Assembly: GCA_030430715.1 (NCBI GenBank)
Contig: JAUIJZ010000015.1
Coordinates: forward strand, 1 to 45,261
DNA length: 45,261 nucleotides
Source: Alphaproteobacteria bacterium
Lineage (GTDB): Bacteria; Pseudomonadota; Alphaproteobacteria; Caulobacterales; Aquidulcibacteraceae
Direction of reading: 5' to 3'
The first letter of the stretch is position 1. Every line of letters begins with the position of its first letter. Under the pieces are notes generated by a model. The model had not been told where the DNA came from. It did no database searches and saw nothing but the letters and a program-made list of their open reading frames with translations. A program made the translations under genes and the position numbers. Below are positions 837 through 36,038 of this stretch, piece by piece.

Positions 837-1568
837 TTATTTTCGCGCTTTCGTCGATGCCTTGGCCGGCTCCCAAACATAGCGATGCCAGAGATTGCGG
901 GCGCGCCGGGCCGCGAGCACGCCGAGTTCTGGGTCGCCTTCTGCAATGGCCGTGAGTTCCAGCTCTTTTGCGGTGCGCCACGCTTCGACAAAGGCGTGGT
1001 GCGCCTCGGCATCCAGTTTTCGCGGGACGGGGAAGCGGCGCTTGGCGAAGGCCATATTGATATGAAAAATCAGCTCGATGTAGCGGCCTTTGATGAGGTC
1101 GAAGATTGCGCTGCGCGTATATTGTTCCAGCTGTGTGACTTCGCTGATCGTGGCGTCGGCTTTGAGTGACGCTACTTTTTGGCGGAGCGTTTCCGCTACA
1201 TTCCTCGCGGCTTTCGTGCGCAGGCTTGCCGCTTTGCGCATGGCCTCAACCCACAGCACGGCCGCGACAACGGTCACGTCCTCGGCGTCCATATCCAGCG
1301 TGTCCAGATAGGCGCTGGCGGCGTTTTCGATGGTTTGCTCGTCTGGGCGCGCAGCGAAATAGCCGCCATTGACGCCGCGCCGCACGCGCAGCAATCCCTC
1401 GCGCTCAAGCAGGCGTGCGACTTGGCGCAGCGTGGCGCGTGAGACGCAGAGCTTTGCGACAAGCGCTTCCTCGCCTCCAAGCAATGCGCCGTTTGGCGCA
1501 TCGGCGGCCATGGTCCGCAATTTTGCGGCGGCCGCCTCGATCGGTGAGTTCGCCTGCTTTCGGGTCAC
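837..1568 (-). CDS. GntR family transcriptional regulator (FCD-type)
   Basis: This is a 243-residue DNA-binding regulator. The winged helix spans about residues 25-75: an alanine-rich first helix, then EALVAKLCVSRATLRQVARL as the helix-turn-helix and EGLLRVRRGVNGGYF as the wing, all typical of GntR. The remaining ~160 residues are helical and fit the FCD effector domain, although the metal-binding histidine pattern is weak. It lies upstream of the aldehyde dehydrogenase on the same strand and divergent from the glycan-locus genes. A TGGTCTGACCA palindrome in the 3.8-kb intergenic region has the form bound by FadR-like FCD regulators, so it may control the TonB receptor as well. Family call good; effector unknown. 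Confidence 0.85.
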   Translation of the reverse strand: MTRKQANSPIEAAAAKLRTMAADAPNGALLGGEEALVAKLCVSRATLRQVARLLEREGLLRVRRGVNGGYFAARPDEQTIENAASAYLDTLDMDAEDVTVVAAVLWVEAMRKAASLRTKAARNVAETLRQKVASLKADATISEVTQLEQYTRSAIFDLIKGRYIELIFHINMAFAKRRFPVPRKLDAEAHHAFVEAWRTAKELELTAIAEGDPELGVLAARRARNLWHRYVWEPAKASTKARK

Positions 1569-1707: not shown

Positions 1708-2925
1708 ATGCACTCAGGATCGGGCTCTCAGCGTCCAGCTTGGGCGCGACGTATTTCGACTCTTGCCGGCGTTGGCGGCGCAGCGCTCTTGGCTTTCACT
1801 TTTTGGGGGCCTTCGGAAAACGCGTCTGCACAGAACGATGCGCTTACCGGGCTGGTCGTTTCCCAGATCGAGTATGCGTTGTCGGATGATTTCACTGAGA
1901 CAGGAGCTTGCCCGGCAGGTCTTTCGATAGGCTCGGTCGAGGCTTATGAACGAGGGCATCCCGATGAGAGTGTGCGGCTTCCGAATGAGACGGAGCGCGA
2001 ATATCGCGGGCGCATAAGCGCCGCTGCGCGCGTGTTGCCTGATGGGCGAAGCATTTGCCTCAATCCTGAGGCCGCCGGGCCGGATCCAAATTTTCAGACC
2101 GTTGTTGGGCGCGATATCCGCGCTTACGGCATCGATCTTGACGGTCGTGCGTCGCGCAACGACGCGCCGCCGGGCCGGGGAACATGCGCGCATAACGATT
2201 TCCGCAGCAGAAGCGGCGTCGCAGGCGTCGACAATCAATTCTACCGTGTGATGGGCTGCGTACATTCCTATCAGCCGGATGGCGCGTTCAACGCCTTCGG
2301 CGATGAAATGCGCGCGGGGGGCTTTGGAATCCTGATCGGGCTGCGCGGTGTTGATGACCTCGTGAATGACCGCGACATCGAAGTAACGTTCTATTCAAAC
2401 GCGGACCGGCTGCAGGTTGATGGCGAGCACAATGGTCTGCCATTCGTCACCTATGCGGCGGAAAACGAGCCTCGCTACATCGCTGCGACGCGCGGGCGCA
2501 TCGTCGACGGCGTGCTGACAAGCGACCCAGTGGATTTCACGTTCCGGCAGTCTGTACACAATTACGGCGTTCGCCTGGAGCGCGAGCTTCAAGATGCGCG
2601 TGTCGAGTTGACGCTTGATGCAAACGGCGCCGCCGAGGGTATTTTGGCTGGCTACACTCCGATTGATCACCTGTGGGCGAACCAGTTTTCCTACGCGGCC
2701 GCGACGGGCGGCGATCCGCCGGAACAATTGCCGGCTCTCATTCCGATGTTGCGGGATAATATCCCCCAGTCGCATGGTTATACCTGCAATGGCGTCTATG
2801 CGGCGTTGGTCGCGAATGCCGACGGAGATCCCGATCCGGAGACGGGGCGGTGCCGGTCGATTTCGATTCAGTATCGCATTAGCGCCGTTCCGGCGTTTAT
2901 CTTGCCCCCAGGGGGCGGCGAATAG
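1708..2925 (+). CDS. Uncharacterised exported protein, paralogue A (six conserved cysteines)
   Basis: This is a 405-residue protein I cannot assign to a known family. An arginine-containing N-terminus and a hydrophobic stretch (about residues 15-33) ending near ASAQ form a signal peptide, so it is exported. It is homologous along its full length to the 404-residue product at 7130-8344. Shared motifs include ETGACP-GLS, CLNP--AGPDP-F-TV-G, GIDLDG--SR, GTCAH-DFR, G-DNQF-RVMGC, GILI-L-GVDDL-ND, GRIVDGVL--DPVD and EGILAGY-P. All six mature cysteines are conserved, which suggests up to three disulfides; DLDG and NADGDPD segments could bind calcium. The start follows AGGGAG. The SGNH hydrolase begins 36 nt downstream, so the two are probably cotranscribed. 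The TonB-receptor context suggests a role at the cell surface or in the periplasm in glycan binding or processing; that is inference. Confidence 0.85.
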   Translation: MHSGSGSQRPAWARRISTLAGVGGAALLAFTFWGPSENASAQNDALTGLVVSQIEYALSDDFTETGACPAGLSIGSVEAYERGHPDESVRLPNETEREYRGRISAAARVLPDGRSICLNPEAAGPDPNFQTVVGRDIRAYGIDLDGRASRNDAPPGRGTCAHNDFRSRSGVAGVDNQFYRVMGCVHSYQPDGAFNAFGDEMRAGGFGILIGLRGVDDLVNDRDIEVTFYSNADRLQVDGEHNGLPFVTYAAENEPRYIAATRGRIVDGVLTSDPVDFTFRQSVHNYGVRLERELQDARVELTLDANGAAEGILAGYTPIDHLWANQFSYAAATGGDPPEQLPALIPMLRDNIPQSHGYTCNGVYAALVANADGDPDPETGRCRSISIQYRISAVPAFILPPGGGE

Positions 2926-2960
2926 GCGCCGCCGGGGCGTTGTGAACGACCGCTGGGGGC

Positions 2961-3803
2961 ATGATGCGAAACATCCTATCGTTGACCTGTACGCTTGTTT
3001 TGTTTGTTGCGGCGTGCGCGCATGCTGGAAGCGCATCTTTGCCGGCCGGGGCAAAATATGTCGCTATGGGGAGTTCGTTCGCGGCAGGGCCGGGCATCAC
3101 CCAGTCTGCTGACGTGCCTCAAAGCCGCTGCGGCCGATCCATCGACAATTACGCGCAGCAGATCGCGCGGCGCCGGGGTTTAGAGCTCATTGATGTGAGC
3201 TGTGGCGGCGCCATGACTGCGAATATCCTGGGGCCGTGGAGTGAATTGCCCGCGCAGATGGATGCGGTCGATGCCGATACACGTCTGGTGACCGTAACCG
3301 TTGGCGGCAACGATGTCGGCTATATTGGCGGCTTATTCGGCGCGTCCTGCGTTTTCATAGCGGATCAGCGTGGCGATGACACGCCGCGCTCTTGCCCGCC
3401 GATCACGGAGCCAGACGAGGCGGCGTTCGCGGCGCTCGAAGAAAGGATGGCGCAAATCCCGATGCAAGTGCGCCAGCGCGCGCCGAATGCGCGCGTTGTG
3501 TTTGTCGACTATCTCACCGTCCTGCCGCCGTCGGGCGCTTGCGAAGCGACGCCGATGAGCGACGCGCACGCGGATCTTGGCCGAAGCATTGCGCGCAGGT
3601 TGCGTGAGACCACGGCGCGTGCGGCGGAGCGGGGTGGTGCGGATGTGTTGAGGGCGTCGGAATTGTCGGCGGAACGTAGCGCATGCGCTGAGGAAGCGTG
3701 GATGAATGGCTTTCCTGCGCCTGAAGGCGGCAGTCCTTATCATCCGAACCTTGAGGGCATGACCGCCGTCGCCGACGCGCTGGAGCAATTGCTCTGGCCC
3801 TAA
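2961..3803 (+). CDS. SGNH/GDSL-type hydrolase, probable lipoprotein
   Basis: This is a 280-residue secreted esterase/lipase of the SGNH fold. The N-terminus is hydrophobic and ends in VAAC, a plausible lipobox with Cys19 as the lipidated residue. Block I is GSSFAAGPG with nucleophile Ser39, where Ser replaces the Asp of GDS. Block III is GGND with Asn117 for the oxyanion hole. Block V is YHPNLEGM with His261 as the base. It resembles the Streptomyces-lipase branch of the family. Such enzymes can remove acyl groups from glycans or lipids; beside a GH106 enzyme and a CE15-like esterase, deacylation of a decorated polysaccharide is a reasonable guess. ATG codons at 2961 and 2964 are both possible starts. 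Confidence 0.85.
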   Translation: MMRNILSLTCTLVLFVAACAHAGSASLPAGAKYVAMGSSFAAGPGITQSADVPQSRCGRSIDNYAQQIARRRGLELIDVSCGGAMTANILGPWSELPAQMDAVDADTRLVTVTVGGNDVGYIGGLFGASCVFIADQRGDDTPRSCPPITEPDEAAFAALEERMAQIPMQVRQRAPNARVVFVDYLTVLPPSGACEATPMSDAHADLGRSIARRLRETTARAAERGGADVLRASELSAERSACAEEAWMNGFPAPEGGSPYHPNLEGMTAVADALEQLLWP

Positions 3804-3826
3804 GCTAGCGGTGAGGTAGGCGGGGG

Positions 3827-3837
3827 TGGTCTGACCA
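3827..3837. promoter_or_regulatory. Palindrome of FadR/FCD-GntR operator type
   Basis: TGGTCTGACCA is a perfect palindrome around a central T and matches the FadR operator core (TGGTC-N-GACCA) known for FCD-type GntR regulators. A GntR-type regulator is encoded at 837-1568. Binding is inferred, not shown. Confidence 0.4.
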
Positions 3838-4107
3838 ATGGCGGCGCGTCTCCCGTAACGTCACGTTTGGCGGGAAATTACCGGTCAGTGTGGCCAATAT
3901 GACTAAAGCCTACACAAATTATGGTTAATGCGAATTCGCGCGCGCGGGGTGATTGTTGCGTTTATGCGCGCTGTTTGATCCTTCCGGCGCCTTGGATGCG
4001 GGGGTGTGTGGAGCTTGGGACACTCTTTGCCGAGAATTGCCGCCGCCACCCGTGTTGTCGGGGTTACACTATTGACCAGACCATTTGCTAATGCTCATCC
4101 TGACCAC

Positions 4108-4124
4108 TTGGCAGATGATGCCAA
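4108..4124. promoter_or_regulatory. Inverted repeat, candidate operator before the TonB receptor gene
   Basis: TTGGCA and TGCCAA are perfect 6-bp arms around GATGA, 131 nt before the receptor start codon. The size and symmetry fit a dimeric helix-turn-helix regulator. No regulator can be assigned from the sequence. Confidence 0.4.
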
Positions 4125-4255
4125 ATAAGTCTATTCGATGACATCTGTGGCGCTGAAGAGTCCTAAGGCTCGTAGAGCGTACTGGGTGAGCGAAGTTAGA
4201 ATTGCTTCAGCCTGGCGTCCTTAATTGCGCCGGGGGAGCAGGGGGAGGACACAGT

Positions 4256-7015
4256 ATGAAGATGAAGTTGGCGGCGCTGCTCGCCGGATCGAGCGTTATG
4301 GCTCTGGCGAGCCCGGCTCTCGCGCAAGACGACGACAACGCGATTGTTGTCACGGGCACGATTATTCGTGGCGTTGCGCCGGCCGGGGCGAATGTTGTCG
4401 GCTTCTCTGAAGAAGATGTGCAGGCCTCCGGCGCCAGCAATCTGAACGAGCTGATGGCGACGCTGCCGCAAGTGAGCGGCAACCTCTATGGCAGCACCGG
4501 CCAAGGCGTTCAGGGCAATTTCAACTCCTTTGTGAACCTGCCGCGGATTTCGCTGCGTGACCTTCCGGGCTCGAACCTCGGCGGCGGCATGCAGACCCTG
4601 GTTCTGGTCGACGGGCACCGTCTGATCAGCGGTGGCATCGCGCAAGTCGGCGTCGATTCTCGCGTTGTTTCCCCGATGCTGGTGGAGCGCGTTGAAGTCA
4701 TTACCGACGGCGGTTCCGCGATCTATGGTTCTGACGCCATTGCCGGCGTCATCAACTACATCACGCGCTCGGAATATGATGGCGTCGAGGCCACGGGCCG
4801 GATGTCGTTTGGCCAAAACGGCTATCAAGCCTGGAACGGCGGCGTCGCTGGCGGCACGGCTTGGGATACGGGTTCGGTTTTCGCGGCCTTCGATTATGCG
4901 ACGCGCGACGCCATGTTCGGGCGCGACTTCGATTATATCCGTGATTACGGGCGCAACCCGGCGGATCTCAGCCCGCTGCCCACCGGAACGCAGTGCGATA
5001 CCGCGACTGTTGAAGAGGGCGGCGCCTCCTATTCGCCTTCGGGCACGCCGCTCTCCTTGCTGGAAACGCGCTGCGACCTGACGGGATCGTCTGGCCGCCT
5101 TTCCGAAGAGTGGATTCACAACTTCAATGCTGGCTTCACGCAGGAACTGACAGAGTCTCTGAGGTTCGATCTGCGCGGCCTGTATTCGGATCGCACGACC
5201 GCTTCACGGTCGTCGCCGTACGGCTTCACCGCCACGGTTTCGCCAGGCAACCCAAATTACGCGATGGGTGGCGCCCTCCCTGGCGCTGGCGACCAGACCG
5301 TGCGTTTCAACTTCAGCCCCGTCTACGATCAGGGCGTGAACAAGGCCACCACCAGCCTCGTTGCGTGGCAGGTCTCGCCGTCGCTGACGTGGGATGTCGG
5401 GAACGATTGGCAGATCCGTGGCCTCGTCAGCTATGGCGAAAGCGAAACCACGGTGCGCAACACCGATCTGGTGGCGACGCGCGTCAATGATGCGATCGCC
5501 GCTGGCACGTTGAACCCGTACGATGTTGCTTCGTCCGATCCGGGCGCTCTGGCCGGTGTGCTGGGCACGAATTACCAGCAAGGCTGGAATACGCTGGAAA
5601 ACTACCGGCTCACGGCTGACGGTCCGCTGTTCGAACTGCCTGGCGGCATGATCCGCACGGCCGTCGGCGCGGAATATATGAGCAATGATTTCTCGCGGCA
5701 GCTGACGACCACAACGGATCCAACCTATCCGTTGGGCGCGCGCGAATCTTACGAGCAGACTGTCGAGTCCGTGTTCGGTCAGCTTTCGGTGCCGATCTTC
5801 GGACCGGGCAACCGTTTCTTCCTCATGGAATCGCTGCTGCTGCAGGTTTCGGCCCGCTACGACAATTATAATGATTTCGGCAGCACCGTGAATCCGATGA
5901 TCGGCGTCACCTACGAGCCGACCGATTGGCTGACGATTCGCGGCAATTGGGGCGAGTCGTTCCAAGCTGCCAGCCCGACCGATATCTTGGGCACCACAGC
6001 GCCGACCAACATTGCGCCCACGCTTCCAGGCAACGGGACGCTGGCGGACGGCAGCACCAACACGGCGTATATTGTCAGTCTGACCAATTCCGCCGTGCAG
6101 CCGCTTGAGCCGCAAACCACGACCAATTGGTCCGTTGGCTTCGACCTGCGGCCGCCGATGATTCCCGGCCTGACATTGAGCGCGAGCTATTATCACATCG
6201 AGCTCAACGGCCGGATTTCGAACGTCGCGAACGGGTCGTCGAACGCGCTGATCAACACCGTGTTCCCGAACCTTTACTATGATGCATCGGAACTGACGCC
6301 CGCGCAGTTCCAAGCGTTCCGCGATCTCACTGGAACGCTGCTCGACGATTATTACGTGGCAGGCGAAGCGCCGCGTACTAATTTGGTTGAGGCTGTCATC
6401 GACAACCGCCGCCGCAATATCGGCAACAACCTGATCGAGGGGCTCGACTTCTCGGCGCGTTATTTCCACGACACCGATTGGGGTTCGTGGGATGCCAGCA
6501 TCAGCGGCACGTTCAAGCTGACCGATGACGAGCAGGCTAGCTCTGCGGCGCCATGGATCAACAAGCTTGAGGTCCGTGATCCCACTGCGGCCAACGTTGG
6601 CCAGCTGAACGAGCGACTGCGCCTCACGGCATCGTTCGGTGTCAGCGTCGACAACTTCCGCGCCCAGGCGACGCTCAATCGCCAAGATGGCCGGGATAAC
6701 GCGTTCTACGTAACAGGCACGGGCGCGACCCAAGTGGCGGCGATACCGCCTGCGAACGCGATCTATCAGGCCGACGTTGATCCTTACCTCACGCTCGATC
6801 TGTTCTTCCGCTATAATCTGGATAACAGCGGCTGGGGCGATTGGACGAGCGACACGTCTCTGACGCTCAACATCGACAACGTCACCAATGAAGAGCCGGA
6901 CATTGTCCAGACGGGCAGCCGTAACCTGGCTGGCACCGAGAGCGCTGGCGGTTATGGCCTGTTCGGTCAGAACCTTGGCCGTGTCTTTACGGTCGGCATC
7001 AGCAAGCGTTTCTAA
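4256..7015 (+). CDS. TonB-dependent outer-membrane receptor
   Basis: This is a 919-residue outer-membrane transporter that would import oligosaccharides or other large ligands using TonB energy. I place the start at ATG 4256, not the upstream in-frame codon, because GGGAGGA precedes it and a clean signal peptide follows (residues 1-23, cut after LALA-type SPALA). IVVTG at 30-34 is the TonB box. The plug domain follows, with SNLNELMATLPQVSG and LVLVDGHRLISGG, then VERVEVITDGGSAIYGSDAIAGVIN. The rest is a beta-barrel ending in GRVFTVGISKRF, with a C-terminal aromatic residue as usual. There is no N-terminal signalling domain and no linked sigma/anti-sigma pair. It lies between two paralogous exported proteins and ahead of a GH106 enzyme, so a rhamnose-containing glycan is the likely ligand. 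A strong terminator follows. Confidence 0.93.
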   Translation: MKMKLAALLAGSSVMALASPALAQDDDNAIVVTGTIIRGVAPAGANVVGFSEEDVQASGASNLNELMATLPQVSGNLYGSTGQGVQGNFNSFVNLPRISLRDLPGSNLGGGMQTLVLVDGHRLISGGIAQVGVDSRVVSPMLVERVEVITDGGSAIYGSDAIAGVINYITRSEYDGVEATGRMSFGQNGYQAWNGGVAGGTAWDTGSVFAAFDYATRDAMFGRDFDYIRDYGRNPADLSPLPTGTQCDTATVEEGGASYSPSGTPLSLLETRCDLTGSSGRLSEEWIHNFNAGFTQELTESLRFDLRGLYSDRTTASRSSPYGFTATVSPGNPNYAMGGALPGAGDQTVRFNFSPVYDQGVNKATTSLVAWQVSPSLTWDVGNDWQIRGLVSYGESETTVRNTDLVATRVNDAIAAGTLNPYDVASSDPGALAGVLGTNYQQGWNTLENYRLTADGPLFELPGGMIRTAVGAEYMSNDFSRQLTTTTDPTYPLGARESYEQTVESVFGQLSVPIFGPGNRFFLMESLLLQVSARYDNYNDFGSTVNPMIGVTYEPTDWLTIRGNWGESFQAASPTDILGTTAPTNIAPTLPGNGTLADGSTNTAYIVSLTNSAVQPLEPQTTTNWSVGFDLRPPMIPGLTLSASYYHIELNGRISNVANGSSNALINTVFPNLYYDASELTPAQFQAFRDLTGTLLDDYYVAGEAPRTNLVEAVIDNRRRNIGNNLIEGLDFSARYFHDTDWGSWDASISGTFKLTDDEQASSAAPWINKLEVRDPTAANVGQLNERLRLTASFGVSVDNFRAQATLNRQDGRDNAFYVTGTGATQVAAIPPANAIYQADVDPYLTLDLFFRYNLDNSGWGDWTSDTSLTLNIDNVTNEEPDIVQTGSRNLAGTESAGGYGLFGQNLGRVFTVGISKRF

Positions 7016-7040
7016 GCGCTAGCTGACGGGAAGTATTGCG

Positions 7041-7080
7041 GGCCTTGTCTCTTCACTGAGGCAAGGCCTGTTTCTTTTTG
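7041..7080 (+). terminator. Rho-independent terminator after the TonB receptor gene
   Basis: GGCCTTGTCTC pairs with GAGGCAAGGCC across a 6-nt loop, followed by a T-rich run (TGTTTCTTTTT). It begins 26 nt after the receptor stop codon and also separates it from the convergent gene at 7130-8344. Confidence 0.85.
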
Positions 7081-7129
7081 GCTTTTAAATGCGATCGCGT
7101 GCTTCTGGCGCCGTCCCTAAGGCATGCGC

Positions 7130-8344
7130 TTAGTAAGAGGGCGCGCCATCGCTCCGGCTTTGTTCCAGATCGTCGTTGGCGCTGCTTGTCTCGGCTTCGA
7201 TGACGAACGCCGGGATGGCGCGGATATGATATTGCGTTGAGATTGAGGTGCAGCGGCCAGTCGCGGGATCGGGATGCCCGTCGGCGTTCTCAAGCAGGGC
7301 GTGATAGACGCCGTTGCAGGAATAGCCGAGCGTTGCGGCGCGGCCGAGCCCCGTAATGGCGCGCGCGCGCACTGGCGCCAGTTCGCCCGCCGCCGTCGCG
7401 CCGTCGCGATAGCCAAAAGTAAAATCGTACAATTCCTCCACCGGCGCATAGCCGGCCAAGATGCCTTCTAAGGCGCCGTCGCTGCCAACATTCATGCGCA
7501 AGCGAGCGTCGCGCAGCGGCCGTTCCAAATACAGACCGTTCGTTATGGAAGGAAAGCGAACGTCCACAGGATCGGTGCTCAGCACTCCATCGACGATGCG
7601 CCCGCGTGCCGTGGCGCGGAACCGGGGATCCTGAATTGCTGCGTATGTCGCGCTTGCTACGGGCTCACGCGCGGGGCTGAGCTGAATGGGGTCTGCGTTG
7701 GCGTAAATGCCGACCTGAACCTCATCATCGTTGCGCAAATCATCCACGCCTTCCAAAGCGATCAGAATGCCCCAGGCGCCGGTGAGCATTTCGATGGCAA
7801 AGCCATTGGCTTGACCGCCAGGCTGGTAGCCATTGGTGCAGCCCATGACGCGGAAGAATTGGTTGTCGATGCCGCGGCTGCCATTGGCCGCGCGGAAGTC
7901 TTCGTGCGCGCATGTGCCGGGCGCGGCTCGCCCGTTTGCGCGTGAATCCTGACCATCGAGATCGATGCCGCCGGTAAGAGGCGCGCTGTGGCCGGCGACA
8001 GTGCGAAAATCAGGGTCTGGTCCCGCACTTTGCGGATTGAGGCAGGGATTGAGCTCGGCGTCCGCAAGCATCTCGCGAAATCGTTGTTGCTGTTCTGGCT
8101 CAGCTTCGCGTCCGAACAGGTTCGCCAAGGCGTTCTGACTTAGGCCCTGAGGGCACGCGCCCGTTTCGCTGGCGTCGCCTGAAAAGACGAACGAGATGTC
8201 TGAGACGACGAAGCCTGCTTCGCCATCCTGAATAAAATTGGATTGTCCTTCGGCTGGCGTGCTCGCGCGTTCGAAAGCAAAGAGTGCGAGCCCGCAAAAA
8301 GCGAATGCTGCAGGTGCGTAGCGGATGAGGGATGAGAGGCGCAT
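7130..8344 (-). CDS. Uncharacterised exported protein, paralogue B (six conserved cysteines)
   Basis: This is a 404-residue homologue of the product at 1708-2925, also unassigned. The first ~34 residues form a signal peptide (basic start, hydrophobic AAFAFCGLALFAF, cut near AEGQ). Every long motif of paralogue A recurs: ETGACPQGLS, AGPDPDFRTVAG, GGIDLDG, PGTCAHEDFR, GIDNQFFRVMGC, GILIALEGVDDL, GRIVDGVL and EGILAGYAP, as do the six mature cysteines. The C-terminus differs: this copy ends in an acidic/serine-rich tail where A ends in PPGGGE. It converges on the TonB receptor gene and diverges from the GH106 gene. No clear Shine-Dalgarno sequence precedes the ATG at 8344. The opposite orientation to paralogue A argues for an old inverted duplication or separate acquisition rather than a recent tandem copy. 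Confidence 0.85.
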   Translation of the reverse strand: MRLSSLIRYAPAAFAFCGLALFAFERASTPAEGQSNFIQDGEAGFVVSDISFVFSGDASETGACPQGLSQNALANLFGREAEPEQQQRFREMLADAELNPCLNPQSAGPDPDFRTVAGHSAPLTGGIDLDGQDSRANGRAAPGTCAHEDFRAANGSRGIDNQFFRVMGCTNGYQPGGQANGFAIEMLTGAWGILIALEGVDDLRNDDEVQVGIYANADPIQLSPAREPVASATYAAIQDPRFRATARGRIVDGVLSTDPVDVRFPSITNGLYLERPLRDARLRMNVGSDGALEGILAGYAPVEELYDFTFGYRDGATAAGELAPVRARAITGLGRAATLGYSCNGVYHALLENADGHPDPATGRCTSISTQYHIRAIPAFVIEAETSSANDDLEQSRSDGAPSY

Positions 8345-8610: not shown

Positions 8611-11600
8611 ATGATCCATACGTCACGCCGGGGATTTCTCGCTGGGACGGTTTGCGTCGCAGCCCTGCCGGCCATCGCGCAGGCGCAAACGCGTGACGTG
8701 CTCGCCGCCGAATTTGCAACACCGCCAGATTCCGCAAAGCCGCGTGTGTGGTGGCACTGGATGAACGGCAATGTCACGCGAGAGGGCATCGCCAAGGATT
8801 TGGCCTGGATGAAGCGCGTCGGCATTGGCGGCGTGCAGAATTTCGACGCGGCGCGCAGAACCCCGCAAGTGGTCGAGAACCGCCTCGTCTATATGACGCC
8901 TGAATGGCAGGAGACGTTTCGCTTTGCAGCGCGTCGCGCCGAAGAACTCGACATTGAACTTGCGATCGCGTCTTCGCCGGGCTGGTCGGAAACGGGCGGT
9001 CCTTGGGTAGAACCGCGCAACGCGATGAAGAAGCTCGTTTGGAGCGAGACAATCCTTGAAGGCGGCGAACATTATCAAGACGTATTGCCCACGCCGCCGA
9101 ACACGACAGGCCCGTTTCAAGACGTGCCGTTTGTGGAAACCAATTCCGTTGCGCCTGATATTGGGCCGCTGCCTGTCTATTATGCCGACGCACTCGTGCT
9201 TGCGTATCCAGTGTCATCACAGCCCGTGCGTGCGCGGGCGCTGAGTGTGAACGGCGAGGCGCTTCCGCTCGATGCTTTGAGCGGCGCCGATTTGACGAAT
9301 GGCATCGATATACCTGCCGCGCAAAATGGAGAGCCGGGCGCGGTGCAATACGATCTCGGCCGAGCGCAATCCGTCAGCGCGGCGACAGTTTTCTTGTCGA
9401 ACCAAGTGCGCGGCACGCGTCCGGCGACTTTGCAATACAGCACCAATGGCCGCACATGGCGCGATCTCGTTGGCTTGAGCCTTGGAACCGTGCCGTCAAC
9501 GGTGAGCTTCTCATCCGTCAGCGCGCGCTATTTCCGTGTGATTTTCCAAGCATCGGCGGCGTCGCCCTTTGGGGCGGCTGCGGCCGGAGGCGAGGGCGGT
9601 GGTGGCAGCGGCGGCGGCGGCGGCTTCAGCATGCCATCCGGAATTGATCCGAGCGCGCTTGGCGCAGCCTTTATCGGCCGGCCAACGCCGCCCTCCAAAT
9701 TCGTACAATTCGAGTTGTTCGCGCAACCGCGTATCAACGCGTTTGAAACGAAGGCCGGGTTTTCGATCGCTCACGATTATTTCGTGCTGGACGGCAATGT
9801 TGGCGCGGATGCTCAAGGCTTGGCGCCGGATTCCGTGCTCGACATTTCGCAGCACATGTCAGCGGACGGCCGTCTCGATTGGACGCCGCCCGCTGGGCGC
9901 TGGAAAGTTCTGCGCCTCGGCTATTCGCTGACAGGGAGCACCAATCACCCCGCTTCGGAAGAAGCCACGGGGCTTGAAGTCGACAAGTACGACGCGCAGG
10001 CCGTTGAAGGCTACATGAACACCTATCTGGACATGTATCGTGAGACGACAGGCGCGAATCTGATGGGTGGCCGCGGTTTGCGTGCGTTGTTGACGGACAG
10101 CACGGAGGTCGGTCCGTCAAATTGGACGCCGCGCATGCTCGAGCTGTTCGAGAACCTGCGCGGCTATGACGCCAAACCTTGGCTGCCGGCGCTGACGGGC
10201 GAGGTTATCGGTTCGCGCAGCCAGAGCGACGCGTTCTTGTACGATTTCCGGCGCACTCTGGCTGAACTCCACGCCACAGAGCATTACGGCACAGTGGCGC
10301 GGGTCGCACATGAGCGCGGACTGATCGTTTACGGGGAATCTCTAGAAGCCACGCGCGCGACGCTGGGAGACGATCTGGATATGCGCAGTTTTGCCGACAT
10401 CCCGATGTCGGCATTGTGGACATATAACGGCCGCCCGAGCGCGACCTATAACGCCGATGGGCGTGGCGCTGCTTCGGTCGCGCATTTGCGCGGTTCAACG
10501 CTCGTTGCATGTGAATCGCTGACATCGATCGCCGCGCCGTATTTGCATGCGCCACGCGATTTGCAGCCGATGATCGATGCGATCTTCGCGAACGGCGTCA
10601 ATCGGCCGGTCATCCATACCTCGGTGCATCAGCCGCTTGATCGCGCGCCCGGTTTATCGCTGCAGGTGTTCGGCCAATTCTTTTCGCGCTTGGAATCCTG
10701 GGCCGAATTGGCGAAGCCGTGGATCGATTACATCTCGCGCAACAGTTATATGCTGCAGCAGGGGCGCAATGTTGCCGATGTGCTGTACTTCTACGGTGAA
10801 GACACGCCAGTCGGCGCCCAGGCAAGCGATTCCTCGCTGCAAGACGCACCGACTCGCTATGCGTATGATTTTATCAGCGCCAATGGTCTGATGACGCTTT
10901 CCGTTGAGAATGGTGAGATCGTCAGCGCCGGCGGCGCACGTTACAGAGCTGTTTATCTGAACAGCAAAACCGGTCGTATGACGTTGCCCGTCTTGCGTAA
11001 GCTCGCGTCCCTCGCGGAGGCGGGAGGCATCATCATTGGCGAAGCGCCGGAAGCTTCGCCGAGCCTGCACGACGATCCGGCTGAGTTTGCGCAGATTGTG
11101 CGGCGGCTATGGAATGGCGGCGACGCTGCGGTTGGCCAAGGGCGGGTCATTCCTGGCCGCGACATTGAGGCGGCGCTCGCGCAGACAGGGCTCGGTGCGG
11201 ATTTCGAGCATTCGGCTGAAGCTGAAATCTTGTTCGTGCACCGCCGCTTCGAGGGCGGCGACCTGTATTTCGTCGCCAATCGCGCAGGTGAGGGCGTGCA
11301 GACAGAGGCGCGTTTCCGTGTTTCCGGTATGGCGGCGGAATTGTGGAGAGCGGATACGGGCGCGTCGGAGCCGGTATCGTATCGCATGGATGGCGCGCAC
11401 ACGATCGTGCCGCTGGATTTGCGCGCCCATGAATCCATTTTTGTCGTGTTCCGCACGCCGAGCTCGCAGACGGCTGTAACGGTTACGAGGCCGGACTTCC
11501 AGCAGGTCGCGGCCTTGGACGGCTCTTGGCGCGTTTCGTTTCAAGAAGGGCGCGGCGCGCCGGATCGCATTAGCTTGGATGCGCTGCAATCGCTTTCGGA

Positions 11601-11982
11601 GCATCCCGATACGGGCGTCAAATATTTCTCCGGCGAAGCCACTTATACAAAATCGTTCGATTTGCCCGAAGGCGTCAGACGCGGCGATCCTTTGCTGATC
11701 GATCTCGGCGAGATCGGCGACATTGCCGAGGTGCGTGTGAATGGGCGCCTTGCGGGCTCGGCGTGGAAGCCGCCCTACCAGGTAGATATTGGGCCGTTTG
11801 TGCGCACACGCCGCAATACGCTGCAAATCCGTGTCGCCAACCTCTGGGTCAATCGGTTGATCGGCGATCAGCAGCCGGATGCTGAGCAGATCACGTTCAC
11901 AACGATTGGCACATTTACGCGCAGCGCGCCGCTGCGCCCATCGGGGCTGATCGGACCGGTGACATTGTTGGCGCATGCATAA
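8611..11982 (+). CDS. Alpha-L-rhamnosidase, GH106 family, Tat-exported
   Basis: This is a 1123-residue exported glycoside hydrolase that would release terminal L-rhamnose. The N-terminus SRRGFLAG is a twin-arginine motif, followed by a hydrophobic stretch cut near AQAQ. Family hallmarks follow: RVWWHWMNGNVTREGI and DLAWMKRVGIGGVQNFD (about residues 46-75), SSPGWSETGGPWV, DSTEVGPSNWT around Glu499, and YGESLEATRATLGDDLDMRSF around Glu576; such acidic residues are the expected catalytic candidates. A discoidin-like segment around residues 235-320 ends in a glycine-rich insert (about 323-342). The last ~150 residues (LDGSWRVSF to GLIGPVTLLAHA) form a galactose-binding-like beta-sandwich as in GH2 enzymes. 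The CE15-like esterase starts 69 nt downstream, so the two probably form an operon. The fold-family call is strong; the exact glycan is unknown. Confidence 0.88.
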   Translation: MIHTSRRGFLAGTVCVAALPAIAQAQTRDVLAAEFATPPDSAKPRVWWHWMNGNVTREGIAKDLAWMKRVGIGGVQNFDAARRTPQVVENRLVYMTPEWQETFRFAARRAEELDIELAIASSPGWSETGGPWVEPRNAMKKLVWSETILEGGEHYQDVLPTPPNTTGPFQDVPFVETNSVAPDIGPLPVYYADALVLAYPVSSQPVRARALSVNGEALPLDALSGADLTNGIDIPAAQNGEPGAVQYDLGRAQSVSAATVFLSNQVRGTRPATLQYSTNGRTWRDLVGLSLGTVPSTVSFSSVSARYFRVIFQASAASPFGAAAAGGEGGGGSGGGGGFSMPSGIDPSALGAAFIGRPTPPSKFVQFELFAQPRINAFETKAGFSIAHDYFVLDGNVGADAQGLAPDSVLDISQHMSADGRLDWTPPAGRWKVLRLGYSLTGSTNHPASEEATGLEVDKYDAQAVEGYMNTYLDMYRETTGANLMGGRGLRALLTDSTEVGPSNWTPRMLELFENLRGYDAKPWLPALTGEVIGSRSQSDAFLYDFRRTLAELHATEHYGTVARVAHERGLIVYGESLEATRATLGDDLDMRSFADIPMSALWTYNGRPSATYNADGRGAASVAHLRGSTLVACESLTSIAAPYLHAPRDLQPMIDAIFANGVNRPVIHTSVHQPLDRAPGLSLQVFGQFFSRLESWAELAKPWIDYISRNSYMLQQGRNVADVLYFYGEDTPVGAQASDSSLQDAPTRYAYDFISANGLMTLSVENGEIVSAGGARYRAVYLNSKTGRMTLPVLRKLASLAEAGGIIIGEAPEASPSLHDDPAEFAQIVRRLWNGGDAAVGQGRVIPGRDIEAALAQTGLGADFEHSAEAEILFVHRRFEGGDLYFVANRAGEGVQTEARFRVSGMAAELWRADTGASEPVSYRMDGAHTIVPLDLRAHESIFVVFRTPSSQTAVTVTRPDFQQVAALDGSWRVSFQEGRGAPDRISLDALQSLSEHPDTGVKYFSGEATYTKSFDLPEGVRRGDPLLIDLGEIGDIAEVRVNGRLAGSAWKPPYQVDIGPFVRTRRNTLQIRVANLWVNRLIGDQQPDAEQITFTTIGTFTRSAPLRPSGLIGPVTLLAHA

Positions 11983-12051: not shown

Positions 12052-13638
12052 ATGCTGCAAAAGATGTGTGTACGAGTCCGCAATTTAGGGCTGGCCGCGC
12101 TGGGCGCCTCGTTGTTGGCCCTCTCAGGGTGCGCCAGCACATCAGCCGATCAAGCTCAGGCGCAAGCTGCGGCGCAGGCGCGCTACAGCACATGGGCGAC
12201 GCCAATCGGGGTGTTGATCGAAGACCCAGCGGCGCGCGCGGTGATCGACAGCCATATGCCTCAATTTTCGGAAGGGCCAATGCTCGGCATGGCGCGCGGG
12301 ATGACGTTCCGGGCGATCCAGGGCTACGCGCCGGCCTTGTTTACAGAGGAAACGTTCAGCGCAATTGACGCGGACCTGGCGCGTCTGACGCCCATTCCAA
12401 CGCCCGAATGGGCCGCCAATATCCGGACGCCGAATTTCGACGAAGATAACGTGCCGCCCTATGAGCTGCCCGATCCGCTCACACTCGCGAACGGTCAGCC
12501 TGTTCGCGATGCCGAGACGTGGTGGGAACAGCGCAGGCCTGAAATTCTCGAATTGTTTCAGTCGGAAGTCTATGGCCGCTCGCCGGGCAGACCCGACGGG
12601 CAGCGTTTCGAAGTGTTCGACACTGGCACGCCGGCGCTCGATGGGCGCGCGATCCGCAAACAGGTGATCATCCATCTGGCGGACGATCCTGAAGCGCCAA
12701 CCATACAATTGGTCGAATACATACCGGCAAACGCCACTGGGCCGGTGCCGATGTTTCTTATGTTGAGTTTCGGCATGCCCGCAGATGATCCTGGCGCGCG
12801 TCCTTTCGCGCCGGTTCGCATGGGCATGACGATGCCGGCGGGAGCTGGCGACGACACGCGCGAGGCTATGGCGGAAAGCGGCGGGCTTTCGCCCATGCCC
12901 ATCGAACAATTTCTCGATGCGGGCTTCGGCGTCGCGGCGATCAATTACACCGATGTCGATCCTGATTTTGAAGGCGGCTACGATCAAGGCATTCGCGGCT
13001 ATCTCGATGGCGGCGAAGCATCGGATCGCGCGCCCGATGCGTGGGGCGCTTTGGCGGCTTGGGCTTGGTCGCTAAGCCGTGTGCAGGATTATTTTGAAAC
13101 GGATCCAGCCGTCGATACCGAGCGCGTCGCCATTTTTGGCGCGTCGCGCAACGGCAAAGCCGCGCTCTGGGCGGGCGCCGTGGATCAAAGGTTTGCCGCC
13201 GTCGTCGCCTGTTGTTCGGGCGAGGTCGGCGCCTCCTTGCTGCGCCGCAATTTCGGTAAGACGTTTGCTGTGGCGACGGCTGCGGACGCCACGTTCTGGA
13301 CCGCGCCAAATTTCGCGCAATATTACGGCCATCCCGAGCGTCTGCCGGTGGACGCGCACATGCTGCTGGCGCTTATCGCGCCGCGGCCTGTGCTGTTGCA
13401 GACGGGCGATCTTGATCTGGCTGGCGATCCGCATGGCGAATTCCTTGCCGCGATTGCCGCGAGCCCTGTCTATGAATTGCTTGGCGCGGAAGGTTTAGGA
13501 GCCGACGCGGATGCTTGGCAGCCGGAGGCGCCTATCCTCACGGATCTAGGGTATTTTGTACACGAGGGTGGTCACGGCATGATCGCCGAGGATTGGGATG
13601 TCTATCTCGCGTTCCTGAGGCGTCATCTCCAACCCTAA
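12052..13638 (+). CDS. CE15-like glucuronoyl esterase / alpha-beta hydrolase lipoprotein
   Basis: This is a 528-residue lipoprotein with the lipobox LSGC (Cys27), after a start supported by AGGGGGA. The C-terminal two thirds is an alpha/beta hydrolase of the bacterial CE15 type. The nucleophile elbow is FGASRNGKAALW with Ser365, and CSGEVGASLLRRNFGKTFA follows; IAPRPVLLQTGDLD precedes HEGGHGM, where His508 is the probable base. CE15 enzymes cleave esters between glucuronate and lignin or other groups. Residues ~45-115 form a separate small segment (TPIGVLIEDPAARAV, GMTFRAIQGYAP) that I cannot name. Downstream of GH106, it may unmask uronate-bearing, rhamnose-rich polysaccharide. A more general acetyl or methyl esterase role is possible. 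Confidence 0.8.
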   Translation: MLQKMCVRVRNLGLAALGASLLALSGCASTSADQAQAQAAAQARYSTWATPIGVLIEDPAARAVIDSHMPQFSEGPMLGMARGMTFRAIQGYAPALFTEETFSAIDADLARLTPIPTPEWAANIRTPNFDEDNVPPYELPDPLTLANGQPVRDAETWWEQRRPEILELFQSEVYGRSPGRPDGQRFEVFDTGTPALDGRAIRKQVIIHLADDPEAPTIQLVEYIPANATGPVPMFLMLSFGMPADDPGARPFAPVRMGMTMPAGAGDDTREAMAESGGLSPMPIEQFLDAGFGVAAINYTDVDPDFEGGYDQGIRGYLDGGEASDRAPDAWGALAAWAWSLSRVQDYFETDPAVDTERVAIFGASRNGKAALWAGAVDQRFAAVVACCSGEVGASLLRRNFGKTFAVATAADATFWTAPNFAQYYGHPERLPVDAHMLLALIAPRPVLLQTGDLDLAGDPHGEFLAAIAASPVYELLGAEGLGADADAWQPEAPILTDLGYFVHEGGHGMIAEDWDVYLAFLRRHLQP

Positions 13639-33992: not shown

Positions 33993-36038
33993 TTACACTG
34001 CCTCGCGCCGCCAGCCCAGCATAAGCAAAGCCATGCCCGCGATTGACCATGCCCAGCCTGGCCCAAGCGGCGTTGCTTGCGCGGCGCGCACCACATAAGC
34101 GCCGTTGCGTTCAATGCCGATCCAGTCGCCGCCCTCCGCGCGCGCGCCGCGATCGACGCGCCGCACTTGCGGCAGATCGCGTCCGTCTTCGCCGGTCAGC
34201 ACAACACCGCCGCCCGTGGCTTGCGCGAAGGGACGCAAAATTTCCGGATCAGCGTTCAGCGCCGCTGCTTCGCGCGGATTAAGCGGACCCACCGCCGCGA
34301 AAGCACGCAGGTTTCCGCTGCGCGCTTCCCACAAACCTTGTTCCGGCGCCGGCGTATCGCCGCGATAAACGCCGGGCGCGTTTTCGCTGAAGGGCGCGGT
34401 GGAGCGCGCGCCGGACGGTGCGATCAATTCCACCGGGCCTGGTGCATTGCCCAGAGTGGCGCGTTCAAACTCAAGACCGGCCGGCGTTGAATCGAGCGTC
34501 AGGCGTTCGTCTTCCAATTCCGGTTCTTGCATCAGCCAATGCGCGAGGCGGCGCAATAATTCGCCGTGTGGGCCGCCGCCATCATAGCCGCGCGCCCACA
34601 GCCAGGCTTGATCCGACCAGAGCTGCGCCACGCGTCCTTCGCCTGCGCGATCCAGCACAAGCAATGGCCGTCCATCCGCGCCGGCGAGCACGCTCTGTCC
34701 ATCGGTGACGCGCGCATCCACTTGCATGCTCCAGCGTCCCCAGCGTTCTGGCGACGGCAGACCGCGCACGACCGGGTGACGGCTGCCGATTTGCGTCGGC
34801 GCCGGCCGATAAGCGCGGCGGATCACATTGCCCGTTGGCTGTGACGGCAAAATACCGGCGAGCGCGGTGCGATAGAGTCCGTCCATGCCCGCTTCGCCTG
34901 GGCCCGCCGTGATGAGCAAAGCGCCGCCTTGTTCGATGCGCCGCGCTATCGAAGCAAAGTAGTAAGCCTGCAGAATGCCGCGCCGGTTGTAGCGGTCGAA
35001 GATAATCAGATCGAATTCGTTCAGCCTGCGTTCGAACAATTCCTCGGTGGGGAAGGGGATCAGCGCCAATTCATGCAGCGGCGTAAAGTCCTGCTTTTCC
35101 GGCGGACGTAAAATCGTGAAATGCACCAGATCCACGGCGGGATCGCTCTTCAACAGATTGCGCCACACGCGCGCGCCTTGATGCGGCTCGCCGGTGACGA
35201 GCAACACGCGCAACCGGTCGCGCACGCCATTGGCGGCGAAGGCAGCGCGATTGTTGGCGAGCGTGATCTCTTGCGGGCCCTCGTCGGCTTCGACGATCAC
35301 CATGTTGCGGCCGCGCTTGCGCAGCGTCACATCGATCGCGAAGGGCTGATTGGCGCGCACCAGCGTTTCAGTCGCGCGCACGCCGTCGATCGAAACGCGC
35401 ACGCGCACTTGCGCGTTGCCGCTGGTGTCGATCACGCGCCCGGTGACGCGCATCGGCTCGCCGACGATGCCGAATGTCGGCGCCGATTCCAATTCCAGTC
35501 TGCGATCGCCGCGATCCGGATCGCCGACGATTAAAATGTGGGCTGGCCCCAGTTCGGCAAGTCGATTGGGCTCTTGCGGCGGATCGGCGGCTTGGCCGTC
35601 CGTGACGATGACCACGCCGCCAATGCGGTCGCGCGCAACGTCCGCAAGCGCGTCCTCCACACTTGTGGTGATAAGCGTCCCGTCTCCAGTGCTGCGCACC
35701 TCGCGCACACGCACATCGAGCCCGGGCTGTTCGGCGAGTTGTTGTGCTATGGCTTCGCCCGCAGTGCGCGCGGCTTCGCTGCGGCCGGCGAGCGCAAGGC
35801 TCTCGCTCTGGTCGATGACGACGAGCGCGACATCTTCAGCCGGTTCACGCGTTTCGCGCACATATTGCGGTTGCATCAGCCCCGCGAACAGAAGCGCGAG
35901 GCCGGCTGCGCGCGTAATCGGCGCCGCGCCGCCGCGCCACGCGTAAAACGCAAGCGCGAGCGCCGCGAGTACGGCAAGCGCAATCAGCGCCGCCATCGGC
36001 AGCGCCGGATCAAAACCGATGCGCGCGCCCGCGATCAT
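33993..36038 (-). CDS. VWA-like membrane protein with glutamine-amidotransferase-like domain
   Basis: This 681-residue protein has N-terminal membrane helices (about 15-35 and 40-57), then a von Willebrand A-like domain with an intact MIDAS start (VVIDQSESL, Asp76), a beta-sandwich segment, and a class-I amidotransferase-like region (RLRVLLVTGEPHQGARVW, DLIIFDRYNRRG, GGALLITAGPGEAG) without an obvious catalytic Cys. A C-terminal helix (PGWAWSIAGMALLMLGW) anchors it. It overlaps the upstream gene by ATGA (36035-36038), which fixes the start. It belongs to the MoxR-linked set that is thought to chaperone or assemble envelope proteins; the specific client is unknown. Confidence 0.88.
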   Translation of the reverse strand: MIAGARIGFDPALPMAALIALAVLAALALAFYAWRGGAAPITRAAGLALLFAGLMQPQYVRETREPAEDVALVVIDQSESLALAGRSEAARTAGEAIAQQLAEQPGLDVRVREVRSTGDGTLITTSVEDALADVARDRIGGVVIVTDGQAADPPQEPNRLAELGPAHILIVGDPDRGDRRLELESAPTFGIVGEPMRVTGRVIDTSGNAQVRVRVSIDGVRATETLVRANQPFAIDVTLRKRGRNMVIVEADEGPQEITLANNRAAFAANGVRDRLRVLLVTGEPHQGARVWRNLLKSDPAVDLVHFTILRPPEKQDFTPLHELALIPFPTEELFERRLNEFDLIIFDRYNRRGILQAYYFASIARRIEQGGALLITAGPGEAGMDGLYRTALAGILPSQPTGNVIRRAYRPAPTQIGSRHPVVRGLPSPERWGRWSMQVDARVTDGQSVLAGADGRPLLVLDRAGEGRVAQLWSDQAWLWARGYDGGGPHGELLRRLAHWLMQEPELEDERLTLDSTPAGLEFERATLGNAPGPVELIAPSGARSTAPFSENAPGVYRGDTPAPEQGLWEARSGNLRAFAAVGPLNPREAAALNADPEILRPFAQATGGGVVLTGEDGRDLPQVRRVDRGARAEGGDWIGIERNGAYVVRAAQATPLGPGWAWSIAGMALLMLGWRREAV

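Follow-up and report, generated by a model that had tools for sequence, protein, structure and literature searches.

We describe a family of exported proteins, hitherto undescribed and unnamed, whose genes are linked in other genomes to those for a DUF1592-type protein and a DUF1552 protein. This linkage suggests that the family is a new third part of the unexplained DUF1592–DUF1552 redox system. Two of its members, hereafter A and B, are encoded in the window, i.e. the whole stretch of 45,261 nucleotides of an alphaproteobacterial contig that was analyzed (Table 1).

A pair of paralogous exported proteins around a TonB-dependent receptor

The genes for A and B occupy the positions given in the original prediction, and their products align, as it had claimed, over nearly their full length, with 182 of 398 positions identical (46%; BLASTP, E=1e-101). 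This alignment contains the predicted motifs DNQF-RVMGC, GRIVDGVL and EGILAGY, as well as all six shared mature cysteines, namely C64, C101, C145, C169, C343 and C365 in the numbering of the 404-aa copy, which displays an extra cysteine (C17) within its leader. Across the sequences of the family, pairs of these cysteines are jointly present or absent; hence, we predict three disulfides, 64-169, 101-343 and 145-365, for the family, the proteins of which are probably stabilized by these bonds. Between A and B lie a GDSL-type gene and, as had been proposed, a TonB receptor gene; the proposed GH106 and glucuronyl-esterase-like genes follow. The receptor shows 32% identity to that of L031, a gammaproteobacterial locus considered below. 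Judging from its sequence, the GntR-like protein encoded divergently from A is no more than a possible local regulator.

Table 1. Genes of the window locus around the pair, with positions in the window
Feature	Position	Strand	Remarks
Family member A, 405 aa	1708..2925	+	Sec-type leader by eye; six cysteines in the mature part
Family member B, 404 aa	7130..8344	-	Sec-type leader by eye; six cysteines in the mature part
GDSL-type esterase/acylhydrolase	2961..3803	+	PF13472, 67.5 bits; between A and receptor
TonB-dependent receptor	~4256..7015	+	PF00593/PF07715
GH106 alpha-L-rhamnosidase	8611..11982	+	PF17132, 982 bits
CE15-like (glucuronyl esterase-like) alpha/beta hydrolase	12052..13638	+	PF22244, 111 bits
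GntR-like regulator	837..1568	-	PF00392 at its cut-off, 27 bits; divergent from A

The claim that the pair belongs to no known family withstood searches of Pfam, NCBIfam and the PDB, including a scan of 36 members, none of which recovered a credible relative. Up to E=1, A has no match in Pfam or NCBIfam, and B has none in Pfam, NCBIfam or the PDB (phmmer, 0 matches). The best E-value among the 36 members was 0.027 in Pfam, for one member only; the best for the family in NCBIfam was 0.17, with matches at chance level or limited to single members; and that of a PDB search with a 36-row family profile was 0.62. SusD or CBM models matched 0 of the 36 members, and curated profiles of known CAZyme families gave no credible match to members of the family. 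Two AlphaFold2 models, built from three-row alignments, have a mostly beta core but are of low confidence (pLDDT 41.6 and 45.2), and Foldseek against the PDB yielded nothing at E<=0.001 (best 0.029); hence, we assign no fold to the family. The viral contigs and phage records that were searched contained no relatives of the family.

The DUF1592–DUF1552 cassette in other genomes

Genetic coupling of the family to a DUF1592–DUF1552 cassette is well shown. In 21 genomes other than that of the window, both DUF1592 and DUF1552 genes occur within ~7 kb of 45 of the 49 family copies found; these copy counts are lower bounds, two of the genome searches having scored only the best <=6 and best <=5 candidates per genome, while family copies were counted in the last search, of five genomes. 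Among the four copies without both partners, one is on a stretch that ends at a contig end (G681) and another lies ~0.6 kb from one (G559). A short and weak match in a further genome (G707, C1:312451-312579; E 9e-6) was left out of the counts. Across 293 genomes of one order, 16 carry the family and 36 have DUF1552, the latter being present in 14 of the 16 carriers versus 22 of the 277 non-carriers (Fisher p=1.4e-12, uncorrected for kinship); these 22 thus have DUF1552 without the family. The proposal that GH106 and TonB receptor genes are the main setting of the family therefore gives way to one in which the DUF1592–DUF1552 pair is the recurrent neighbor outside the window's genome, and we reject adjacency to GH106 as a constant setting.

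The usual cassette comprises the family member, in one to three copies (three in L131; two in L047, L079, L080, L082, L084 and L135), the DUF1592-type protein and the DUF1552 protein. The DUF1592-type protein contains a single c-type heme motif toward its C-terminal side (CXXCH in 19 of 19 neighbors examined), and the two that were scanned match the PF07631, PF07627, PF07637, PF07624 and PF07626 models. The DUF1552 protein displays a twin-arginine leader by eye. Sequence searches of the PDB with the L031 proteins gave no match for DUF1552 and nothing below E 0.047 for DUF1592. Certain cassette loci additionally code for a cytochrome c', a cytochrome b561 and a TonB receptor. An operon of Sphingobium encodes the receptor, an AraC-type regulator, the family member, DUF1592, DUF1552, cytochrome c' and cytochrome b561, and L031 unites a TonB receptor, a Rieske oxygenase, the cassette and GH106. 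The family is also matched by 13 plasmid records; three of the four examined hold the cassette, with a cytochrome c gene and that for cytochrome b561 directly behind it in two of them. Plasmids of Sphingobium from tomato bear both GH106 and the family.

Conservation among the three proteins was lowest for the family member in all 66 pairs drawn from 12 cassettes, the median identities being 31.2% for the family member and 45.7 and 48.0% for the other two. Such fast divergence is also compatible with weak constraint.

Fifteen dispersed copies in the window's genome

A and B are not a lone pair; rather, they represent two of 15 copies dispersed over 13 contigs of the window's genome. These copies are mutually 35-73% identical (median 46%) and keep their cysteines, which indicates that they are old and look selected. 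The glycan/TonB setting that had been proposed for the family holds for about six of them, namely the two in the window and those of L020, L023 (beside a TonB receptor), L025 (beside GH78) and L027 (beside GH106), and fails for the other nine, which lie beside unrelated genes, although this tally is our own reading and some of the nine negative stretches end at contig ends. The placement of A and B around a receptor next to GH106, together with the L023, L025 and L027 neighborhoods, could be taken to mean that the family provides a rhamnoside-utilization locus with its glycan-binding protein, at the surface or in the periplasm, as a SusD-like partner of the TonB receptor. We consider this unlikely, given the nine copies with neither a glycan-related nor a TonB neighbor, the constancy of DUF1592/DUF1552 as the neighbor in other genomes, the distance of ~139 kb on the TomTYG74 plasmid between the best of the GH106 places listed and the cassette's family gene, and the lack of a lipobox, as seen by eye, in the family.

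The L018 copy is a single-gene gain, inserted between lysS and the gene for a PLP decarboxylase, which adjoin each other without the family gene in the three siblings fetched, their aligned ends being ~744, 11 and 299 bp apart. This gain, along with the absence of the family from all 29 congeners searched, might point to a mobile or selfish single gene that disperses irrespective of its neighbors. Such a reading is improbable: a crude count of words up- and downstream of 14 of the copies recovered no common flank but only G+C-rich words, the mutual divergence of the copies with retention of their cysteines speaks for old and apparently selected genes, and elsewhere the gene remains within the cassette. 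We view as very improbable the idea that contaminating foreign contigs bearing the family entered the genome bin during assembly. It would account for the 29 congeners that lack the family and for a DUF1552 of this genome with 78% identity to its gammaproteobacterial counterpart from L031, but the lysS and decarboxylase genes on either side of the L018 copy are conserved neighbors in the congeners, and the genome (G000) is rated as 1.29% contaminated, yet has its copies on 13 contigs. By virtue of these conserved neighbors, contamination is rejected for the L018 copy alone.

This DUF1552 is the only one of the window's genome and is unlinked to any family copy, and no DUF1592 was found in the genome. 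Neither occurs in the stretches fetched around the 15 copies (0/15), several of which were short or ended by contig ends. The family members of the genome, for their part, are 37-49% identical to those of L031. With no DUF1592 found and no linked DUF1552, the role of the family in the cassette cannot hold unchanged in this genome. The persistence of the family here without a detected DUF1592 would suit an alternative in which it is itself an enzyme (e.g. a periplasmic hydrolase, lyase or isomerase) acting on the product or substrate of DUF1592/DUF1552, with the copies representing different specificities. Eight columns are invariant over the 36 members, including D130, D160, N161, D355 and S369, which could be catalytic or metal-binding. 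Against this, the profile searches tied the family credibly to no known enzyme, and the invariant residues lie mostly in Gly/Asp-rich loops that would be equally fit for binding Ca2+; hence, we regard an enzymatic role as rather unlikely.

A proposed role and its relation to known systems

We tentatively favor, as a reading that is plausible if somewhat short of probable, that the family is the third component of the DUF1592–DUF1552 locus, i.e. a fast-evolving and probably substrate-facing exported component of a redox system. Its biochemical role in the cassette, as we infer it, would be as follows. The DUF1592/DUF1552 pair may constitute a redox enzyme of the periplasm that is connected to the quinone pool via heme c, cytochrome c' and cytochrome b561, with the family member as its variable, substrate-facing subunit, which might present plant glycosides or their aglycones. 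In the window's genome this variable component would have been multiplied to 15 dispersed single genes versus one DUF1552 and no detected DUF1592, and A and B would serve the TonB/GH106 rhamnoside-using locus of the window. A broader and more speculative proposal, which we hold to be doubtful, is that of an undescribed periplasmic redox machine of Proteobacteria with a constant core of the monoheme DUF1592 protein and DUF1552, linked to the quinone pool by cytochrome c'/b561, and the rapidly diversifying three-disulfide family as its exchangeable component for substrate recognition; the organism of the window would then represent a one-to-many version, with one DUF1552 serving 15 dispersed family members, of which some are located in rhamnoside/TonB loci.

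For PSCyt/PSD-type systems, a third partner that evolves fast and can occur in as many as three copies in a cassette offers a handle, and what the DUF1592–DUF1552 system recognizes might be readable from the family member. The operon of Sphingobium is a compact unit amenable to deletion tests in culturable strains.

SusD-like proteins work with a TonB receptor in Bacteroidetes. Like these and other surface glycan-binding proteins, A and B are exported, and their genes neighbor those for a TonB receptor and for glycoside hydrolases; however, the family has no SusD or CBM match and its constant partner is different. The window also resembles the sphingomonad rhamnosidase loci, exemplified by the SpGH106-1 and SpGH78-1 genes of Sphingobium sp. 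RC1 (PMC10653915), in having GH106 beside a TonB receptor, whereas the family goes unmentioned in the available passages of that account. Some bacteria have PSCyt/PSD genes in large numbers, with nothing known of their functions according to PMC5615132, and a literature search pairing DUF1592 with DUF1552 found no paper. The constant neighbors of the family are such proteins, namely the DUF1592/DUF1588/DUF1595/DUF1585/DUF1587 (Planctomycete-specific PSD/PSCyt3) type, paired with DUF1552 (HXXSHH). Unlike the PSD/PSCyt3 proteins, the family has no CXXCH heme motif (0/36 members) and does not match their five Pfam models (0/36 up to E=1), and it thus stands beside them as a third, separate protein.

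The two window proteins and their family

The paired open reading frames lie where the original prediction placed them, and their end-to-end paralogy was confirmed, with 46% identity across 398 aligned positions (E=1e-101). The locus runs from the GntR-like regulator (-) through member A (+), the GDSL hydrolase (+), the TonB receptor (+) and member B (-) to GH106 (+) and the CE15-like gene (+). The regulator, a Pfam match at the cut-off, is divergent from member A and could regulate the locus. Elsewhere in the window, an ORF with no Pfam match at E<=1e-5 sits between DUF3500 and BatA/DUF4159 genes, near a MoxR-type ATPase gene. Both A and B begin with a hydrophobic Sec-type leader, with no lipobox apparent in either; from these leaders, judged by eye, we infer that the family proteins are exported.

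Coordinates of family genes, partners and neighboring features (C, contig; L, fetched locus)
Feature	Location	Strand	Length
Family member A	window 1708-2925	+	405 aa
Family member B	window 7130-8344	-	404 aa
GntR-like regulator	window 837-1568	-	
ORF between DUF3500 and BatA/DUF4159 genes	window 33993-36197	-	734 aa
DUF1552 gene, window's genome	C58 14594-15925 (L042:8595-9926)		
Phage-lysozyme-like gene (PF00959)	L022:264-1316		
Abhydrolase_10 (PF20091)	L027:6150-7622		
Abhydrolase_10 (PF20091)	L117:7556-9124		
Family gene, Sphingobium herbicidovorans pMSHV	L044:11462-12807		
Locus without cassette, Sphingobium sp. TomTYG65	L046:11443-20990		

No Pfam or NCBIfam model matched A or B, and no PDB chain matched B, up to E=1. 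Single scans of the 36 members of our alignment (A3) recovered only isolated matches, each confined to one member (best E 0.027 in Pfam and 0.17 in NCBIfam), and the 36-member profile retrieved nothing credible from PDB (best E 0.62). Therefore, the claim that this is an undescribed family stands within these libraries. Two AlphaFold2 runs with three-sequence input yielded a mostly beta core at pLDDT 41.6 and 45.2, and Foldseek returned nothing significant with these low-pLDDT models.

Eight alignment columns are invariant (G126, D130, D160, N161, C169, G294, D355 and S369, numbered as in member B). Beyond C169 (36/36 rows), C64 is present in 35/36, the sole exception (L029) being truncated at a contig end. 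C101 and C343 share the same state in 35/35 rows with letters at both columns; C145 and C365 are jointly present in 22 of 36, the remaining 14 showing a gap at column 145 and a non-cysteine at 365. The 101/343 pair is kept without 145/365 in L077, L045 and L046, and the opposite pattern occurs in L078. As the two pairs vary separately, each being jointly present or absent, disulfides 64-169, 101-343 and 145-365 are predicted from cysteine co-occurrence, in which related rows are not independent.

Genomic context outside the window's genome

The family is genetically coupled to DUF1592 and DUF1552, and the cassette formed by one or more family genes, a DUF1592-type monohaem protein gene and a DUF1552 protein gene is its defining context. 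The genes adjoining the family gene in G037, the only one of 31 other relatives searched with a copy, and in the gammaproteobacterial MAG G446 (loci L030 and L031) match the PSD4/PSCyt3/PSD5/PSD2/PSD3 models (DUF1592/1588/1595/1585/1587) and HXXSHH (DUF1552). Outside the window's genome we found 49 copies in 21 genomes: 16 carriers among 293 genomes of the order of G446 (at most six candidates scored per genome), along with G037 and, in a search of the window's class (385 genomes), G825, G862, G958 and G1031, with all copies counted in these five. One weak G707 match (short, E 9e-6, 18 kb from that genome's cassette) was omitted. For 45/49 copies found, the fetched stretch includes both partners, no more than about 7 kb from the family gene; these 45 are not independent, several loci being near-identical between related genomes (e.g. 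L079, L080, L082). The misses are the second G559 copy (~0.6 kb from a contig end), a G681 copy cut by a contig end, a partial gene in G470 and one of nine G958 copies.

Searching the 293 genomes with both queries placed the family in 16, DUF1552 in 36 (35 over the curated cut-off) and both in 14 (Fisher p=1.4e-12, uncorrected for relatedness). DUF1552 also occurs in 22 genomes that lack the family, which therefore marks only some of the DUF1552 systems. It is a real family, undescribed in the libraries searched and uncommon, with carriers making up 2/398 genomes in a phylum-wide sample (narrower profile) and 6/385 in the class, the window's own included in each.

Thirteen plasmid records have a family match, and three of the four examined carry the cassette (L043-L045). 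Two Sphingobium plasmids encode, in this order, a TonB receptor, an AraC-type regulator (opposite strand), the family protein, DUF1592, DUF1552, cytochrome c(c') and cytochrome b561; the G707 locus (L078) also has the cytochrome c'–b561 pair, and that of G037 a cytochrome c'. The annotation of pMSHV splits the family gene into two overlapping hypothetical ORFs, and the gene may be broken in the strain or in the record. The TomTYG65 family gene lacks the cassette and lies beside GH39 and an annotated 3-beta-hydroxysteroid dehydrogenase gene; this locus also has an annotated NADH:flavin oxidoreductase and, further on, a sulfatase annotation. Four loci of the order of G446 (L079, L081, L084 and L089) encode, next to the family protein, a possible fourth component: a secreted-repeat protein with Lipoprotein_15 (PF03640).

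Across 66 pairwise comparisons of 12 cassettes, the family member was always less similar than either partner (66/66), with a median identity of 31.2% against 45.7 and 48.0% for its partners. Two family genes accompany one DUF1592–DUF1552 pair in L047, L079, L080, L082, L084 and L135, and three do so in L131. All 11 copies in G1031, and eight of the nine in G958, are in cassettes.

Multiplication in the window's genome

Protein searches recovered 15 copies in the window's genome, spread over 13 contigs (46-61% identical to member B; 35-73%, median 46%, among themselves over 105 pairs); the 29 congeners, incomplete bins among them, yielded no copy. In the tree, these 15 cluster with three of the four G446 copies in a single supported group (18 members). 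The tandem L047 copies fall into different own-genome subgroups, indicating that part of the diversification predates the split of these lineages or gene exchange between them.

At L018, a conserved chromosomal site differs by one gene: lysS and the PLP decarboxylase gene, which flank the copy here, adjoin without a family gene in the three fetched siblings G022, G005 and G020 (aligned ends about 744, 11 and 299 bp apart, respectively). Contamination as its source is countered by this shared site, for this copy of the 15. The 15 copies have mixed neighbors. The window has GH106 with a TonB receptor, L027 has GH106 followed by Abhydrolase_10, L025 carries GH78 and a tannase-like gene, L023 encodes a TonB receptor and a Kelch protein, and L020 a TonB-receptor-like protein; lysS, MgtE, PhoX, acetyl-CoA-synthetase-like and DUF445 genes also occur beside copies. 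A glycan or TonB neighbor is present for about 6/15 own copies (our count, without a background rate), whereas elsewhere the cassette defines the context. In a second genome (L117), Abhydrolase_10 immediately precedes the family gene, and the phage-lysozyme-like gene is directly downstream of an own copy.

The window's genome, alone among 30 of its genus, has a DUF1552 gene over the cut-off, a single one 55 bp from a contig end, whose product shares 78% identity with the L031 protein across 442 aa. No DUF1592 lies upstream of it; that side is occupied by a divergent long ORF, glutamate-synthase-like by eye. DUF1592 was not found in this genome by a profile search, which gave no match anywhere, or by a protein query that gave 3, 1 and 1 matches in the controls G446, G638 and G037; none of the 15 copies has DUF1592 or DUF1552 in its fetched stretch (up to about 8 kb, shortened by contig ends in L020, L022, L023, L027, L028 and L029). 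This absence is not proven, since the assembly is at draft level (172 contigs), with a completeness rating of 98.8%.

Proposed role and comparison with known systems

A haem motif is present in 19/19 DUF1592 proteins examined and in 0/36 family members. We tentatively prefer, at slightly under even odds, to see the family member as the substrate-facing subunit of the DUF1592–DUF1552 system. Electrons would pass between the DUF1592 haem, cytochrome c' and cytochrome b561 in a periplasmic redox system, whose substrate-facing part the family member would form. Rieske oxygenase, P450, GH106, GH78, GH39, GH79-like and esterase genes neighbor several loci and may point towards plant or aromatic/terpenoid glycosides. 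Tomato-root Sphingobium GH106 and GH78 enzymes are reported to act on steroidal saponins (PMC10653915), and PSCyt2 and PSCyt3 genes of freshwater Verrucomicrobia are reported usually to adjoin two families of unknown genes, some PSCyt genes encoding carbohydrate-binding modules, with nothing known of PSCyt functions (PMC5615132). L031 combines a TonB receptor, Rieske oxygenase, cassette and GH106; hence, the window's TonB–GH106 locus resembles it without DUF1592 and DUF1552, the two receptors being 32% identical.
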